Translations under genes and position numbers: made by a program
The notes under the pieces: generated by a model
The model's database searches: none
Seen by the model: the letters and a program-made list of their open reading frames with translations, nothing else
What the model was told of the DNA's origin: nothing
Shown: piece by piece, positions 18,052 to 26,187 of the stretch
How positions within the stretch are numbered: position 1 is the stretch's first letter
How the letters are laid out: every line of letters begins with the position of its first letter
Origin: Candidatus Methylomirabilota bacterium
GTDB taxonomy: Bacteria; Methylomirabilota; Methylomirabilia; Rokubacteriales; CSP1-6
Reading direction: 5' to 3'
Length of the DNA stretch: 37,782 nt
Assembly: GCA_036002485.1 (NCBI GenBank)
Contig: DASYTI010000107.1
Location: 1-37,782 of the forward strand

Positions 18052-21000
18052 ATGAAGTGCGCCGGGTGCGGGCAGCAGAGTCCTGCGGGATCGCGGTTCT
18101 GCGCGGGCTGTGGCGCGCGCCTCGTTCCCGCGTGCCCGGCGTGCGGCGCGGAGCTTCCCCTCGACGCCCGCTTCTGTCCTCAGTGTGGGCAGGCCTCGCT
18201 CACGGGCGCGGCGGTCACCGCGGAATTCGCGAGCCCGGCGACGTACACCCCCAAGCATCTCGCCGAGCGCATCCTCACCTCGAAGGCCGCCCTCGAGGGC
18301 GAGCGCAAGCAGGTCACCGTCCTCTTCGTGGACGTCTCCGACTTCACCGCGCTCTCGGCGCGGCTCGACCCCGAGGACGTGCACGCGCTGATGACGCGCG
18401 CCTTCGAGCTCATGCTGGCCGAGGTCCATCGGTACGAAGGCACCGTGAACCAGTTCCTCGGTGACGGCATCATGGCGCTCTTCGGCGCGCCCATCGCTCA
18501 CGAGGACCATGCGCAACGGGCCGTGCGGGCCGCCCTCGGCATCGCGCGCGCCCTCGAGGATTATCGACGCGACCTGGAGCGCGAGCGCGCCCTGAGCTTC
18601 AAGGTGCGCCAGGGCCTCAACAGCGGGCTGGTCGTCGTCGGGAGCATCGGCAACGACCTCCGGATGGACTATACGGCGGTCGGGGACACGACCAACGTCG
18701 CCGCGCGCTTGCAGCAGGGTGCCGAGCCCGGACACATCGTGATCGGCGAAACCACGTACCGTCTCGTCGCCGACTACTTCGACACCCGGTCGCTCGGTGA
18801 GCTGTCCGTGCGCGGCAAGGCGGAGCCCATCCGCGCGTGGATCGTCGAGGCCGCGCGCGAAGGCCGGACGAGGCTCGATGCCGGTGCCCAGCGCGGGCTC
18901 ACGCCGCTCGTCGGACGCGGGCGAGAGCTCGAGGCGCTCGAGGCCGCCCTCGCCCGGACCCGCGCCGGGCACGGGCAGGTCGTGTTCGTCGTCGGGGAGC
19001 CGGGGATCGGCAAGTCGCGCCTGCTCTACGAGTTCCGCGGGCGCGCGAGCGAGGCCGACTGGCGCGAAGGGCATTGCCTCTCCTTCGGCCGCGCCACGGC
19101 CTTTCATCCGCTCGTCGACCTTCTCAAGCGATGGGTGGGCATCGACGAGCGTGATGCCGAGGATGTCGCGGTGACGAAGGTCGAGGGCGCCGTGGCGGCC
19201 ATCGGCGACGACGTGCGCGCGGCGGCGCCCTACCTGCTCTATCTTCTCTCGCCCGGGGCGGCCGACGCCGCCATCACCGCGCTCGATCCGCGCGAGCGCC
19301 GCGGCGGCATCTTCGAGGCGCTCCGCAGAATGATCCTGCGCGCGGCCGAAGGGCGGCCGCAGATCGTGGTGATCGAGGACCTCCACTGGATCGATCGGGC
19401 GACCGAGGAGTTCCTGGCCGTGCTCGGCGACAGCGTGCCCGCGAGCCCGGTGCTCCTGATCTTCACCTACCGCCCCGGCTACGCGCAACCCTTCGGGGAG
19501 CGCACGTATCACACGCGGATCGTGCCGGCGCCGCTGTCGGAGCCCGAGAGCGCCCGCATGGCCGCGGCCATCCTCGCGAGCGACGCGTTACCCGACACGC
19601 TCCGGAGCGCCATCGCCGCCAAGGCCGAAGGCAATCCGTTCTATGTCGAGGAGGTCGTGCGCTCGCTGCGCGAGGCGGGGGCGATCCGCGTCGAGAACGG
19701 CCGCTTCGTGCTCACCGCGCGGCTCGACGACGTCGTCATCCCCGACACGATCCACGACGTGATCATGGCGCGCATCGACCGGCTGGAGGAGGCCCCGAAG
19801 CGGACGTTGCAGACCGCCTCCGTCATCGGGCGCGATTTCACGCAGCGCCTCGTCGAGCGCCTGAGCGAGGTCCGCGGCCGGAGCGACACGCTCCTGCGCG
19901 AGCTGCGGGCCGTGGAGCTGATCTACGAGACGGGCGTGTTCCCCGAGGTCGCCTACCGCTTCAAGCACGCCCTCACCCAGGACGTCGCCTATCGCTCGTT
20001 GCTCGTCCAGCGCCGTCGCGAGCTGCATGGTCTGATCGGCGCCGCCATCGAAGCGCTCTACGCCGACCGTCTCACCGAGCACTACGAGGTCCTCGCCCAT
20101 CATTTCTCCCTCGCGGAAGACTGGCGGCGCGCCTTCGACTACCTGCTGAAGGCCGGAGAGAAGGCGGCGGCGGCCTTCGCGCTGCGTGACGCGCTGGCCT
20201 TGTACGACCAGGCGCTGGGCGTCGCCGATCGCCTCGGGGGCGCCCTGCCCGCCGCCGCCCGCATGGCCATCCACCAGGCGAAATCGTCCCACGCGTTTTT
20301 CCTCGGCGACTTCAACCAGGGCCGGGCCGAGGGGGAGCGATGGCTCGCCCTCGCCGAGGGCGCGGGCGATCGGGCGGCCGCGGCGTCGGCGCTGGCGTGG
20401 ACGAGCTTCGCCACCATGTGGGCGCAGGACTTCGACGCGGCCAGCGACTATGCGCGCCGCGCCATCGAAGTCGGCGGCGCCGCCGACGTCCCCGCCGCGG
20501 TGGGTGGCGGCTACCTCACCATGGCCTACGTGAATGCCCTGAGCGGCCGGCACGACAAGGCGGGCTCGGAGTTCGACGAGGCGCTTCGCGTCAGCCGCAT
20601 CGCGCGCGATCCGGCGCGCGAGATCCTCACCCTGCAGATGCATGGCGTCTTCCACGGCTGGCGCGGCGACTACGGGCGCGCGCACGCCGGCGCCGACGAG
20701 GCGGTCCGCCTCGCGCGCGACCATGGCTTGCTCGTCCTCTATCTGCGCAGCCTGTGGACGCGCGGACTGACGTCGACGTCGATCGGCGACTGGGACGGCG
20801 CCCTGGGTGACCTCGAGGAAGGCATCGCGGTGGCCGAACGGATCGGCGACCGCGGCTTCATGCCTCGGATGATGAACACCCTCGGCTGGCTGCACATCGA
20901 GTGCGACGACATCGAGCGCGGGATCGATGTGACAGGTCGGGCGGCCGCGTTCGCCCGCGACATCCGCCACGCCTTCGGCGTCGAGATGTACACCTTCTGC

Positions 21001-21558
21001 ACCGTCAACCTCGGTGACGCCTTCCTGGCCAAGGGTGACCTCACGCTGGCCGGCGAGAAGTTCGACGAGGCGCGACGCATCGCCGAAGACCCCAAGACCC
21101 ACGAGTGGATGAAGTGGCGCTATACGCTGCACCTCCACGCGAGCCTCGGCGAGTACTGGCTGGCCCGCGGCGACCATCGGCGGGCCGTCGAGTTCGCCGA
21201 GCGTTCGCTGGCGGGGTCGCGGCCGACCCGGTCGCTCAAGTACGTCGCGCGGGCCCTGCGGCTCCTCGGCGACGTCGCGCGCCGGGACCGGCGGTGGGAC
21301 GACGCCGAGCGCGCGTTGCGGGAGTCGGTCGAAATCGCCCGCGCCATCGCGCATCCCAACCAGATCTGGAAGACGGAGCTGGCCCTGGCGCGACTCCATG
21401 CCGCCACGGGCCGGCGTGATGCGGCGGCCGAATCTCTCGCGGCGGCTCGCCGGACCATCGAGGGGCTCCGGGGCGGGGTGCGGGACGCGCGTCTGCTCTC
21501 TGGGCTCACCGACGGCCCGCTGATCCGCGGCGTCTTCGACGCCTCCCCCTTCGACTGA
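18052..21558 (+). CDS. Zinc-ribbon adenylate/guanylate cyclase with AAA ATPase and TPR domains
   Basis: Multidomain regulator of 1168 aa. Residues 3-46 form a double zinc ribbon (CxxC pairs at 3/6, 17/20, 28/31 and 42/45). A class III nucleotide cyclase domain follows (about 80-270), with the metal-binding FVDVSDFT, the GDGIMALFG loop, and a DYTAVGDTTNVAARL segment. The AAA/NACHT-like ATPase comes next: Walker A GEPGIGKS near residue 315-322, Walker B IVVIEDLHWID near 438-448, and a KAEGNPFYVEEVV helix region near 525. From about 700 to 1130 the chain is TPR-like helical repeats. This layout is common in GC-rich environmental bacteria; the ATPase-TPR part is STAND-like and probably gates cyclase activity after ligand binding. 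It is cytoplasmic with no TM segment. It stands alone between divergent MFS and codirectional dapL genes. Confidence 0.9.
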   Translation: MKCAGCGQQSPAGSRFCAGCGARLVPACPACGAELPLDARFCPQCGQASLTGAAVTAEFASPATYTPKHLAERILTSKAALEGERKQVTVLFVDVSDFTALSARLDPEDVHALMTRAFELMLAEVHRYEGTVNQFLGDGIMALFGAPIAHEDHAQRAVRAALGIARALEDYRRDLERERALSFKVRQGLNSGLVVVGSIGNDLRMDYTAVGDTTNVAARLQQGAEPGHIVIGETTYRLVADYFDTRSLGELSVRGKAEPIRAWIVEAAREGRTRLDAGAQRGLTPLVGRGRELEALEAALARTRAGHGQVVFVVGEPGIGKSRLLYEFRGRASEADWREGHCLSFGRATAFHPLVDLLKRWVGIDERDAEDVAVTKVEGAVAAIGDDVRAAAPYLLYLLSPGAADAAITALDPRERRGGIFEALRRMILRAAEGRPQIVVIEDLHWIDRATEEFLAVLGDSVPASPVLLIFTYRPGYAQPFGERTYHTRIVPAPLSEPESARMAAAILASDALPDTLRSAIAAKAEGNPFYVEEVVRSLREAGAIRVENGRFVLTARLDDVVIPDTIHDVIMARIDRLEEAPKRTLQTASVIGRDFTQRLVERLSEVRGRSDTLLRELRAVELIYETGVFPEVAYRFKHALTQDVAYRSLLVQRRRELHGLIGAAIEALYADRLTEHYEVLAHHFSLAEDWRRAFDYLLKAGEKAAAAFALRDALALYDQALGVADRLGGALPAAARMAIHQAKSSHAFFLGDFNQGRAEGERWLALAEGAGDRAAAASALAWTSFATMWAQDFDAASDYARRAIEVGGAADVPAAVGGGYLTMAYVNALSGRHDKAGSEFDEALRVSRIARDPAREILTLQMHGVFHGWRGDYGRAHAGADEAVRLARDHGLLVLYLRSLWTRGLTSTSIGDWDGALGDLEEGIAVAERIGDRGFMPRMMNTLGWLHIECDDIERGIDVTGRAAAFARDIRHAFGVEMYTFCTVNLGDAFLAKGDLTLAGEKFDEARRIAEDPKTHEWMKWRYTLHLHASLGEYWLARGDHRRAVEFAERSLAGSRPTRSLKYVARALRLLGDVARRDRRWDDAERALRESVEIARAIAHPNQIWKTELALARLHAATGRRDAAAESLAAARRTIEGLRGGVRDARLLSGLTDGPLIRGVFDASPFD

Positions 21559-23700: not shown

Positions 23701-24449
23701 AGCGCTGCCGGTGCCGGCTGATCGCTCTCACCGCGGCGGCCGTCGTCGCAGGGTGCGTGGCGAGCGCGCCACCCCGCGAGTTCGCTCCGGGCACCCTGCG
23801 CCTGCTTCCCGCCGAGCCGGCGGCATCGATCCTCTACGTGGCGCTGGGCGACAGCACGGTGGAGGGTGTCGGGGCCAGCGCTCCCCCTCGCCACTACGTG
23901 GGCCGGCTCCACGAGCGGCTCCTCGCCGTCTATCCCCAGGCGCGGCTGATCAACCTCGGGGTCGGGGGCGCCACGGCCGCCGGGGTACTGCGTCGCCAGC
24001 TCCCGCGGGCCCTGGAGCTCCAGCCCGATCTCGTCACGCTCTCCGTCGGCCCCAACGACATCACCCAAGGACGAGATCTCGAGAGCTACGCCCGCGACGT
24101 CGAGGCGATCCTCCGGACGCTGACCCACCGGACGACCGCCGTCGTGGTGGTCAATCTCATCCCCGATCTCACCGTCACGCCTCGCTTCAGGGGCAAGGAG
24201 ATCGAGGCGCTGGTGCCCCAGCGCGTGGTCGCCTTCAACGAGATCCTGATTCGTCAGGCGCGCGCGAATGGAGCGGAAGTCGTGGACCTCTACGCCGCGA
24301 GCCAGCGGGAGGTGCCGGGCCGCCCCGAGCTCATCGGGGCCGACCGCTACCATCCCTCGGATGAGGGCTACGCGCGCTGGGCCGAACTGATGTGGGCCGG
24401 GATCGAGGCGCGGATCCTGCGCCCGCCGAGTGTCCCTACCCGCCCTTGA
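23697..24449 (+). CDS. SGNH/GDSL-hydrolase lipoprotein
   Basis: Hydrolase of 250 aa, GTG start overlapping the methyltransferase stop. The signal peptide ends in VVAGC with Cys20 as lipid anchor. Block I is ALGDSTVEG with nucleophile Ser53; block II shows INLGVGGATAAGV; block III is SVGPNDI; block V is ADRYHPSDEGY with the Asp-x-x-His pair. This is the TesA/GDSL esterase layout, and lipidation places it in the envelope, acting on acyl esters, lipids or acetylated glycans. Oddly, its last four codons and stop (24436-24449) lie inside a duplicated permease 3' end read on the other strand, so the original C-terminus may have been replaced when that fragment arrived. Confidence 0.85.
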   Translation: MKRCRCRLIALTAAAVVAGCVASAPPREFAPGTLRLLPAEPAASILYVALGDSTVEGVGASAPPRHYVGRLHERLLAVYPQARLINLGVGGATAAGVLRRQLPRALELQPDLVTLSVGPNDITQGRDLESYARDVEAILRTLTHRTTAVVVVNLIPDLTVTPRFRGKEIEALVPQRVVAFNEILIRQARANGAEVVDLYAASQREVPGRPELIGADRYHPSDEGYARWAELMWAGIEARILRPPSVPTRP

Positions 24450-24492
24450 GGCGCGGATCGAGCCAGTCTCGCAGCGCGTCGCCCAGCATGTT
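24436..24492 (-). pseudogene. Duplicated 3' end of an oligopeptide permease gene
   Basis: These 57 bases match the last 18 codons plus stop of the permease gene at 25231-25287 with only three mismatches. Similarity begins exactly at the stop codon. On the minus strand it reads NMLGDALRDWLDPRLKGG then TAG. Two of the three differences are synonymous and one changes Leu to Trp, which points to drift of a once-translated copy. Upstream of it (24493 onward) permease similarity is lost. It is best explained as the stump of a deleted paralogous permease gene. Confidence 0.7.
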
Positions 24493-24654
24493 CCAACTAC
24501 TGCCTCGCGCGCCCGCGCACCCGACAGTCGCGAGATACCAGTCCGACCCCTGCCGCCCGCCCCCGGTCAGCTTTACCGAGTCGGATCGCCCAACTTTGCT
24601 CCACGCTGCCGGCTCGCCGGCACAACTACCGATGCAACCTGGATTTCCCAGAGG

Positions 24655-24669
24655 TGGCACGGAAGATGC
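24655..24669 (+). promoter_or_regulatory. Sigma-54 (-24/-12) promoter
   Basis: TGGCACGGAAGATGC matches the sigma-54 consensus TGGCACG-N4-TTGC at all but one position, with the invariant GG and GC exactly 10 bases apart. The predicted transcript would begin near 24681, about 45 bases before the zinc-ribbon start codon and 30 before its GAGGAGAAAGGG ribosome site. No activator gene is visible beside it. Confidence 0.6.
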
Positions 24670-24725
24670 CTCCGACCAGATGCAGAAGATCTGGCTCGAT
24701 CCCGAGCCCATGAGGAGAAAGGGCC

Positions 24726-24881
24726 ATGGAACATGACTTCGTCTATTGTCCGCGATGCCTACGCTATTCGGTCGTCCGCTGGCTACGGGGGCTCGGCCAG
24801 TGGGAGTGCGAGGACTGCACGTACAGGCTGCCCAGGGAGGAGATGATGGCATGGACGACTACTGCGACACTGCCATCGTAG
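24726..24881 (+). CDS. Small zinc-ribbon protein (51 aa)
   Basis: A 51-codon gene starting at ATG 24726, preceded by GAGGAGAAAGGG. Two CxxC knuckles, C8-P-R-C11 and C28-E-D-C31, are 16 residues apart, the spacing of a single zinc ribbon. Between them are aromatic and basic residues (RYSVVRWLRGLGQWE). Such microproteins bind nucleic acid or act as adaptor knuckles in larger complexes; the function here is unknown. The C-terminal dozen codons overlap the next gene in another frame (31 bases). A good -24/-12 promoter lies upstream. The gene is short enough for standard gene callers to miss. Confidence 0.6.
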   Translation: MEHDFVYCPRCLRYSVVRWLRGLGQWECEDCTYRLPREEMMAWTTTATLPS

Positions 24882-24979
24882 CTCTCATGCTGGCCCTCGC
24901 GGTCTGCCTCACCGTGTTCTTTCTCAAGGTGGCGGAGCCGAGCGGGGGGCTCGTCGAACTGCTGTTTCCCCGGCTCTGA
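24851..24979 (+). CDS. Single-helix membrane microprotein (42 aa)
   Basis: A 42-codon gene starting at ATG 24851 with GGAGGA 9 bases upstream, inside the end of the zinc-ribbon gene but in another frame. After an acidic N-terminus (MDDYCD) it has one strongly hydrophobic helix, about residues 8-25 (ALMLALAVCLTVFFL), then KVAEPSGG and a second short hydrophobic stretch ending FPRL. This is the profile of a small inner-membrane protein. The overlap and shared promoter suggest it works with the zinc-ribbon protein. No family recognised. Confidence 0.5.
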   Translation: MDDYCDTAIVALMLALAVCLTVFFLKVAEPSGGLVELLFPRL

Positions 24980-25027: not shown

Positions 25028-25080
25028 CTCACTGAATGATCTGATCCGCTCTCCGCAGCAGCGGCGGGGGGATCAGTGAG
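25028..25080. repeat. Inverted repeat downstream of the microprotein genes
   Basis: CTCACT and GATCC on the left pair with GGATC and AGTGAG on the right, with a 9-base bulge on the left arm and a GC-rich loop. It lies 48 bases after the microprotein stop. Without a T tract it is not a standard terminator; it may stabilise the 3' end or be an operator. Confidence 0.35.
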
Positions 25081-25184
25081 CCGAGCGACTTGGGCGGTCT
25101 GCGCGTTCGTGTGACGGCCCGGGAAACGCAACGTGTGCGCGCGAAGAAACGCTCTGCCGCTACCCACCGTCGCATTGCAAGACC

Positions 25185-25233
25185 TGGCCCCGTAACTGGC
25201 CCGTAACTCGGTAACTACTGGCCCCGGTAACTA
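25185..25233. repeat. GTAACT repeat cluster at the permease 3' end
   Basis: GTAACT occurs four times in 41 bases (25192, 25203, 25211, 25227), twice within the longer unit CTGGCCCCGTAACT or CTGGCCCCGGTAACT. The last copy runs into the permease stop codon. This looks like slippage or tandem duplication next to the breakpoint-rich region. Confidence 0.5.
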
Positions 25234-26187
25234 CCCGCCCTTGAGGCGAGGATCGAGCAAGTCTCGTAGCGCGTCGCCCAGCATGTTGAACCCGAAGACG
25301 GCGAGCGAGAGAGCCACCGCGGGCCAGATGGCGAGCCCGGGCGCGCGGTACATGTGGTCGAGGCCGGCGAGGGAGAGCATCCCGCCCCAGGTCGGATAGG
25401 GCGGCGGCACCCCGAGCCCGAGGAAGGACAGGCTCGCCTCGGTGAGGATCACCGTGGAGAGGCCGGTCGTGGCCACCACGATGATCGTCGGCAGCACGTT
25501 CGGCAGGATGTGTCCGGCGGTGATCCGGACATGGCCGGCTCCCGCGGCGCGGGCGCCCTCGATGTAGGTGTTCTCCTTGATCGAGAGCGCCATGCTCCGG
25601 ACGATCCGCGAGTTCTGGATCCCGAAGGCCGTTCCCAGCACGATCGTGATGTTCCACGCCCCTGGCCCCACCAGCGACATGATGGACATGAGAAGCAAGA
25701 GGGGCGGGAAGGCCATCCAGGCGTCCACCGCCCGCTGGAGGAGCAGGTCCACCCGCCCGCCGAAGTAGGCGGAGCCGATACCGACGAAGGTGGCGATGAG
25801 GCAGCCGAGGCTGACGGCGCCGAACCCCACGTAGAGCGACACCCGCGCCCCGTAGAGCAAGCGCGTGAGCAGATCCCGGCCGAGCGGATCGGCGCCCAGC
25901 CAGTGCTCGCGGCTGATCGGCGCGAAGCGCTCGCGCAGGTTCGTCTCCGCGAACCCGTAGGGGGTGATCACGTCGGCGAGCACCGCCCCCCCCAGCATGA
26001 CGATCACGATCACCGCGCCGAGCGTGCCGAGCGGCTTGTGGCGCACGAGCTGGATCCAGACGTCGGTGTACCACGCGCGGGTTCGCGGGAGCCGTCGCAG
26101 GTTGACGGCGGCGCCCCCCGGCTCCACGGCCACCGCCGCGGACCCGCGGGACCTAGTGGTATCGGATGCGGGGGTCCAGGAAGGCAT
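25231..26187 (-). CDS. Peptide ABC transporter permease, DppC/OppC type
   Basis: Inner-membrane permease of 318 aa with about six helices. The N-terminal OppC_N segment VRHKPLGTLGAVIVIVML leads to the typical HWLGADPLGRDLLTRLLYGA sequence, and the EAA loop for ATPase docking is EGARAAGAGHVRITAGHILP. The end NMLGDALRDLLDPRLKGG is the standard family C-terminus. It forms a heterodimer with the DppB-type subunit encoded just upstream. The ATG at 26187 overlaps that gene by 35 bases; a GTG at 26133 is an alternative. Normally ATPase genes dppD and dppF follow, but here the next 700 bases hold only repeats, microproteins and a second permease 3' stump. Confidence 0.9.
   Translation of the reverse strand: MPSWTPASDTTRSRGSAAVAVEPGGAAVNLRRLPRTRAWYTDVWIQLVRHKPLGTLGAVIVIVMLGGAVLADVITPYGFAETNLRERFAPISREHWLGADPLGRDLLTRLLYGARVSLYVGFGAVSLGCLIATFVGIGSAYFGGRVDLLLQRAVDAWMAFPPLLLLMSIMSLVGPGAWNITIVLGTAFGIQNSRIVRSMALSIKENTYIEGARAAGAGHVRITAGHILPNVLPTIIVVATTGLSTVILTEASLSFLGLGVPPPYPTWGGMLSLAGLDHMYRAPGLAIWPAVALSLAVFGFNMLGDALRDLLDPRLKGG

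Follow-up and report, generated by a model that had tools for sequence, protein, structure and literature searches.

The window analysed here, a stretch of 37,782 nucleotides from an uncultured soil bacterium (Rokubacteria) with a genome of 4.45 Mb (G000), carries a compact unit on the forward strand between a GDSL lipase gene and an oligopeptide transporter operon. It consists of a -24/-12 promoter element, the gene of a 51-aa zinc-ribbon microprotein (ORF1) and an overlapping reading frame for a predicted 42-aa single-pass membrane peptide (ORF2). A second copy was found in a genome of the same genus (G004; record Candidatus Rokuibacteriota bacterium QHSC01000099.1), where it occupies a different genomic position, between an alpha/beta hydrolase gene and a DUF2339 gene, and retains the promoter, the two Shine-Dalgarno sites and the two ORFs with exactly the same overlap. 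Since the neighbours differ between the two genomes, the genomic context gives no functional link.

A 57-bp direct repeat (24436-24492 and 25231-25287, 95% identical) lies at both sides of the unit, which is therefore located within the 795-bp segment between the two copies. The repeat duplicates the 3' end of a permease gene, and in the left copy this sequence is joined to the 3' end of the GDSL lipase gene; the pair is probably the scar of a rearrangement, not a target-site duplication. Two further stretches downstream recur elsewhere in the genome: a 60-bp stretch with a GATC-containing dyad (25041-25100), which has 78-83% matches in contigs C61, C243 and C153, and a 67-bp stretch (25126-25192; CGCATTGCAAGACCTGGCCCCG...), which has two copies of 86-88% identity in contig C218, where they flank the gene of a predicted secreted protein whose C-terminal tail is of the sorting type, and recurs in contig C33. 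Upstream, positions 18052-21555 encode a 1168-aa protein with double zinc ribbon, adenylate/guanylate cyclase, AAA ATPase and TPR domains.

The promoter element (TGGCACGGAAGATGC, 24655-24669) reads TGGCACG-GAAG-ATGC and possesses the GG-N10-GC arrangement with correct spacing, just as an earlier sequence-only reading of this DNA had described; its -12 box is ATGC, not TTGC. In the comparison of the two copies, the G004 counterpart (TGGCACAGAAGATGC) is conserved whereas the adjoining leader is poorly conserved. Further upstream lies an enhancer-like block (CCGCCCCCGGTCAGCTTTACCGA, 24557-24579), a candidate activator (bEBP) site, which is identical to its G004 counterpart (CCGACCCCGGTAAGGCTTACCGA) at 18 of 23 positions with a score unmatched in 300 shuffles. 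The block encloses the dyad CGGTCAG-C-TTTACCG (24564-24578), located 84 bp upstream of the T of the -24 element, which is a relative of TTACCSGGTAA with three mismatches and is conserved in both copies. Moreover, the block of the window is very similar to its counterpart at the DUF1328 gene of the genus (TCAGCTTTACCGAGTCGGAT vs TCGGCTTTACCGGGTCGGAC).

The same promoter class was surveyed by taking every exact TGGCACR-N4-TTGC (27 sites) and TGGCACR-N4-ATGC (23 sites) in G000 and G004, the surrounding genes being called from codon usage, with five genes of the window that have Pfam support as the training set. Under this gene calling, all 27 TTGC-type and 19 of the 23 ATGC-type sites were intergenic (46/50), and a called gene on the same strand followed at 44 of the 46, usually within ~300 bp, three of these genes being farther off (571-1166 bp). 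One additional spacer base (N5) reduced the number of sites from 50 to 4. Given this share of intergenic sites among those of the ATGC type, the ATGC variant of the -12 box is probably in use. Both genomes contain rpoN (PF04552 over cut-off), and the full-length NtrC-type regulators number at least a dozen; two rpoN-type DNA-binding domains were noted in G000, at C106:54679-55149 and C19:95200-95672, the latter split across two frames and thus perhaps a pseudogene or an assembly error. The spacing specificity, the intergenic enrichment, rpoN and the conserved promoter with its enhancer-like dyad make the element a credible predicted promoter of the unit, in agreement with the sigma-54 control proposed earlier.

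With two mismatches allowed, the dyad TTACCSGGTAA lies between -60 and -150 at 11 of the 46 sites, which are not all independent since some of them are orthologues of one another in G000 and G004, and at 0 of 46 in each of three intervals farther upstream, -160 to -250, -260 to -350 and -310 to -400. It is a candidate common activator site upstream of loci L039, L041, L044, L059, L066 and L074 as well as L076, L077, L080, L082 and L084. A PrsR-type PEP-CTERM activator was considered as the regulator and rejected, with nothing over cut-off. Many of the predicted targets are proteins of the envelope or small proteins that are secreted or membrane-bound. A Pfam scan of 20 target proteins gave a mixed list, with DUF1328, DUF1344, MlaE, a penicillin-binding protein (PBP) of class A, glycosyltransferases and a sugar nucleotidyltransferase next to topoisomerase IB, a carbamoyltransferase and binding proteins of the NMT1-like type; several targets have no Pfam match. 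The envelope targets fit the proposal of sigma-54 as a controller of the bacterial exterior (PMC3162934).

ORF1 (24726-24881) starts with an ATG at 24726, preceded at a distance of 8 nt by the Shine-Dalgarno sequence AGGAG (24713-24717), and the surrounding block ATGAGGAGrAAG-sGGCCATGG is conserved in G004. The protein (MEHDFVYCPRCLRYSVVRWLRGLGQWECEDCTYRLPREEMMAWTTTATLPS) bears cysteines at positions 8, 11, 28 and 31; the ribosome site and both pairs, C8xxC11 and C28xxC31, were as previously read, and all four residues are invariant between the window and G004. The two proteins share 90% identity, differing at 5 of 51 residues, yet 59% of the synonymous sites differ, which corresponds to a dN of 0.048, a dS of 1.43 and a dN/dS of ~0.03 for the G000-G004 pair (Fisher p=7e-12 for nonsynonymous versus synonymous differences). 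Judged by this substitution pattern, ORF1 is a real protein gene under selection, which bears out the zinc-ribbon gene of the sequence-only reading. The synonymous divergence of ORF1 is higher than that of the neighbouring hydrolase and GDSL genes (p ~0.005), which together with the changed location of the unit hints at a separate history of its own. The GC3 of ORF1 is 0.745 vs 0.88-0.93 in three neighbouring genes, and a crude codon-usage caller picked ORF2 and passed over ORF1.

The two CxxC knuckles of ORF1, separated by ~16 residues within a predicted beta fold, are those of a zinc ribbon. The AF2 model is beta-rich, with strands at residues 4-8, 13-20 and 25-28 plus a short helix (mean pLDDT 76). 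The best Foldseek matches belong to zinc ribbons or zinc fingers (eL43, the TFIIB N-terminus and ZifS), the rest include many ribbons of polymerase subunits and other domains that bind zinc, and all matches have E>0.7. The protein would be expected to bind zinc. Its best Pfam match is Zn_ribbon_IS1595 (E=0.002; 18.5 bits vs a curated cut-off of 25.4), and when its profile was compared with that of two IS1595-type transposases from Rokubacteria, the match had 94.7% probability with 38% identity over 32 columns, whereas the ribosomal eL43/S27ae ribbons also score weakly in the profile search. The weak tblastn matches of ORF1 in relatives were rejected, L012 and L015 being IS1595 transposases and L013 a frame-shifted reading of a CheY-like gene, with the others judged chance frames from their translations alone; none of these matches has the four cysteines in a separate small gene.

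ORF2 (24851-24979) begins inside ORF1 with an ATG at 24851, overlaps it by 31 nt and has a Shine-Dalgarno sequence of its own, GGGAGGAG (24835-24842), 8 nt before the ATG; the G004 counterpart (AGAGAGGAG) stands at equal distance. The peptide (MDDYCDTAIVALMLALAVCLTVFFLKVAEPSGGLVELLFPRL) is 67% identical to that of G004, with frame, start, stop and hydrophobic helix retained. Its AF2 model contains a helix at residues 3-28, followed by a short helix at 32-38 (pLDDT ~81-92 for residues 1-20), and the mean hydropathy of residues 7-27 is 2.5 in the window and 2.65 in G004, so that ORF2 has the single hydrophobic helix of ~20 residues typical of a small membrane protein and would be inserted in the membrane. 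Lys26 and Arg41 together with the acidic N-terminus suggest that the tail faces the cytoplasm. Within the overlap, all five differences fall at third positions of ORF1, which are first positions of ORF2, and the constrained frame there is therefore the C-terminal tail of ORF1. Outside the overlap, the single sequence pair gives a dN of 0.18-0.19, a dS of 0.22-0.32 and a dN/dS of ~0.9 (p=0.55 for N vs S), and the substitutions in the helix mostly exchange one hydrophobic residue for another. Because dN about equals dS, the coding status of ORF2 is probable, not proven. Of the 42-aa membrane protein claimed earlier, the frame, start, GGAGG and hydrophobicity were borne out, whereas dN/dS, which in the ORF1 frame revealed clear constraint, lends it no support. 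A programmed -1 frameshift joining the two ORFs was rejected, as no X_XXY_YYZ site was seen by eye in the overlap and ORF2 has its separate Shine-Dalgarno sequence and ATG in both genomes. Antisense coding in the ORF2 region was likewise rejected, with no reverse frame displaying third-position bias, and RNA structure there was not convincing (z -1.2 and -2.0, mononucleotide shuffle).

Profiles of ORF1 and ORF2 run over 95 genomes of the phylum matched only G000 and G004, with no unit in the other 93, and a pattern scan, a method whose reach is limited to close relatives, returned the G004 record as its sole match among 84,980 species genomes; the plasmids and phages were empty, as were the viral contigs under the pattern scan for close relatives. 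The expected co-occurrence of both ORFs, their spacing and the -24/-12 element was thus encountered, together with the cysteines, the helix and the promoter, in one other genome. The distribution is patchy within the genus (2 of 5 genomes), the other three members having the neighbouring DUF2339 gene and lacking the unit, and the unit is best read as lineage-restricted. Neither protein has a match passing the curated cut-offs of Pfam or NCBIfam, and the best PHROGs matches, in a library that has no curated cut-offs, are no better than E ~0.02. Since none of the libraries searched (Pfam, NCBIfam, PHROGs, PDB) names either protein, the family looks undescribed, as the sequence-only reading had supposed.

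Taken together, we tentatively favour, with somewhat less than even confidence, a lineage-restricted, sigma-54-dependent two-gene operon, whose products would be a ribbon adaptor and a peptide in an envelope/stress programme. An NtrC-class activator would bind ~85-110 bp upstream and remodel the sigma-54 RNA polymerase at 24655-24669, a step that we infer from the promoter, from rpoN and from a dyad that other sigma-54 targets share. The short bicistronic mRNA would first yield the soluble, cytoplasmic zinc-ribbon microprotein; the steps up to this translation are well supported by the sequence comparison. A second product, whose translation is likely, would be the 42-aa inner-membrane peptide, made from the start inside ORF1 by means of the separate ribosome site and oriented with its basic C-terminal side toward the cytoplasm. 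The most likely role of the zinc ribbon would be that of a small adaptor in the cytoplasm, which operates together with the peptide from the same transcript at the membrane or close to it, both serving the sigma-54 envelope/stress programme of the genus. Translational coupling, an interaction between the two proteins and the envelope role are presumed parts of this scheme, and the membrane-tethered regulatory or stress module suggested in the sequence-only reading is likewise presumed. Against the scheme count the dN/dS of ORF2, the presence of the unit in two genomes only, the lack of any family match above a curated cut-off, the high E-values of the fold matches, the differing neighbours and the mixed list of targets.

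Several other explanations have to be weighed against this operon. The one given most weight, itself rather unlikely, regards ORF1 as the sole sigma-54-driven gene and ORF2 as a hydrophobic frame that lies in the 3' region of ORF1 and serves no protein function. Such a view accords with the spread of ORF2 substitutions evenly over the codon positions (4/7/6), with a dN of 0.19 against a dS of 0.22, and with the 88% of random substitution sets that leave ORF2 open; against it stand the retention of the Shine-Dalgarno sequence, ATG, stop and helix, the ~0.01 of simulations (1%) that were as good as observed in hydrophobicity and similarity jointly, and a nonsynonymous rate of ORF2 below the synonymous rates of the neighbour (p=0.02) and of ORF1 (p=8e-5). 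That ORF1 is a captured IS1595-type transposase zinc ribbon, now serving as a DNA-binding microprotein or local regulator, is unlikely: the Pfam and profile-profile matches point in this direction, whereas the former is under the cut-off, zinc ribbons converge easily, ribosomal ribbons of the eL43/S27ae type score similarly, and beyond the ribbon neither a transposase motif nor repeat ends were seen.

A toxin-antitoxin-like pair, in which ORF2 would be the membrane-peptide toxin and ORF1 its small zinc-ribbon partner, is improbable. Two tiny overlapping genes with a short hydrophobic peptide, the patchy presence at different positions and the elevated synonymous divergence of ORF1 would suit such a pair; however, toxin-antitoxin pairs are not usually under sigma-54 control with a dyad for an activator upstream, plasmids, phages and viral contigs yielded no match, and no family match exceeded a cut-off. 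Least probable of all is a fortuitous -24/-12 match with transcription of the unit from elsewhere, for which the ATGC in place of TTGC might be quoted, and which is opposed by the intergenic enrichment and spacing specificity of the exact pattern, the conservation in G004 beside a poorly conserved leader and the dyad upstream. A more elaborate version of the operon, also improbable, envisages a two-microprotein switch, in which the peptide of the overlapping frame would either keep the sigma-54-induced ribbon at the inner membrane or let it go, and the ribbon would act as a membrane-tethered nucleic-acid- or polymerase-binding regulator; if true, this switch would be unlike the described small-protein systems.

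The analysis provides a well-supported, short and apparently uncatalogued protein gene from an uncultured phylum, which was recognisable only because promoter and selection agree. As a by-product, a spacing-validated list of predicted sigma-54 targets and a candidate common activator dyad were obtained, which render sigma-54 regulation in Rokubacteria directly testable.

The family belongs to known kinds, namely zinc-ribbon microproteins, small membrane proteins and sigma-54 operons. With the sigma-54 (RpoN)/NtrC-class promoters, the unit shares the exact spacing of TGGCAC-N5-WTGC, a candidate activator dyad at about -85 to -110 and rpoN, whereas its -12 box is ATGC and TTACCSGGTAA was not matched to a named activator here. 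ORF1 resembles the ribbon of IS1595-type transposases (PF12760) in the spacing and pattern of CPRC...GQwxCxxC and in the identity over 32 columns, but it is a stand-alone protein of 51 aa without a transposase domain and with a score below cut-off. The ribosomal eL43 (L37ae)/S27ae and TFIIB N-terminal ribbons have the four-cysteine ribbon and weak profile or fold matches in common with ORF1, whereas these families are archaeal/eukaryotic and the match is not significant. Unlike the small single-pass bacterial membrane stress proteins, ORF2 has no sequence match and is accompanied by a zinc-ribbon partner in an overlapping frame; like them, it is short and forms one predicted helix, and the unit's promoter class is common to the DUF1328 membrane protein gene in the genus.
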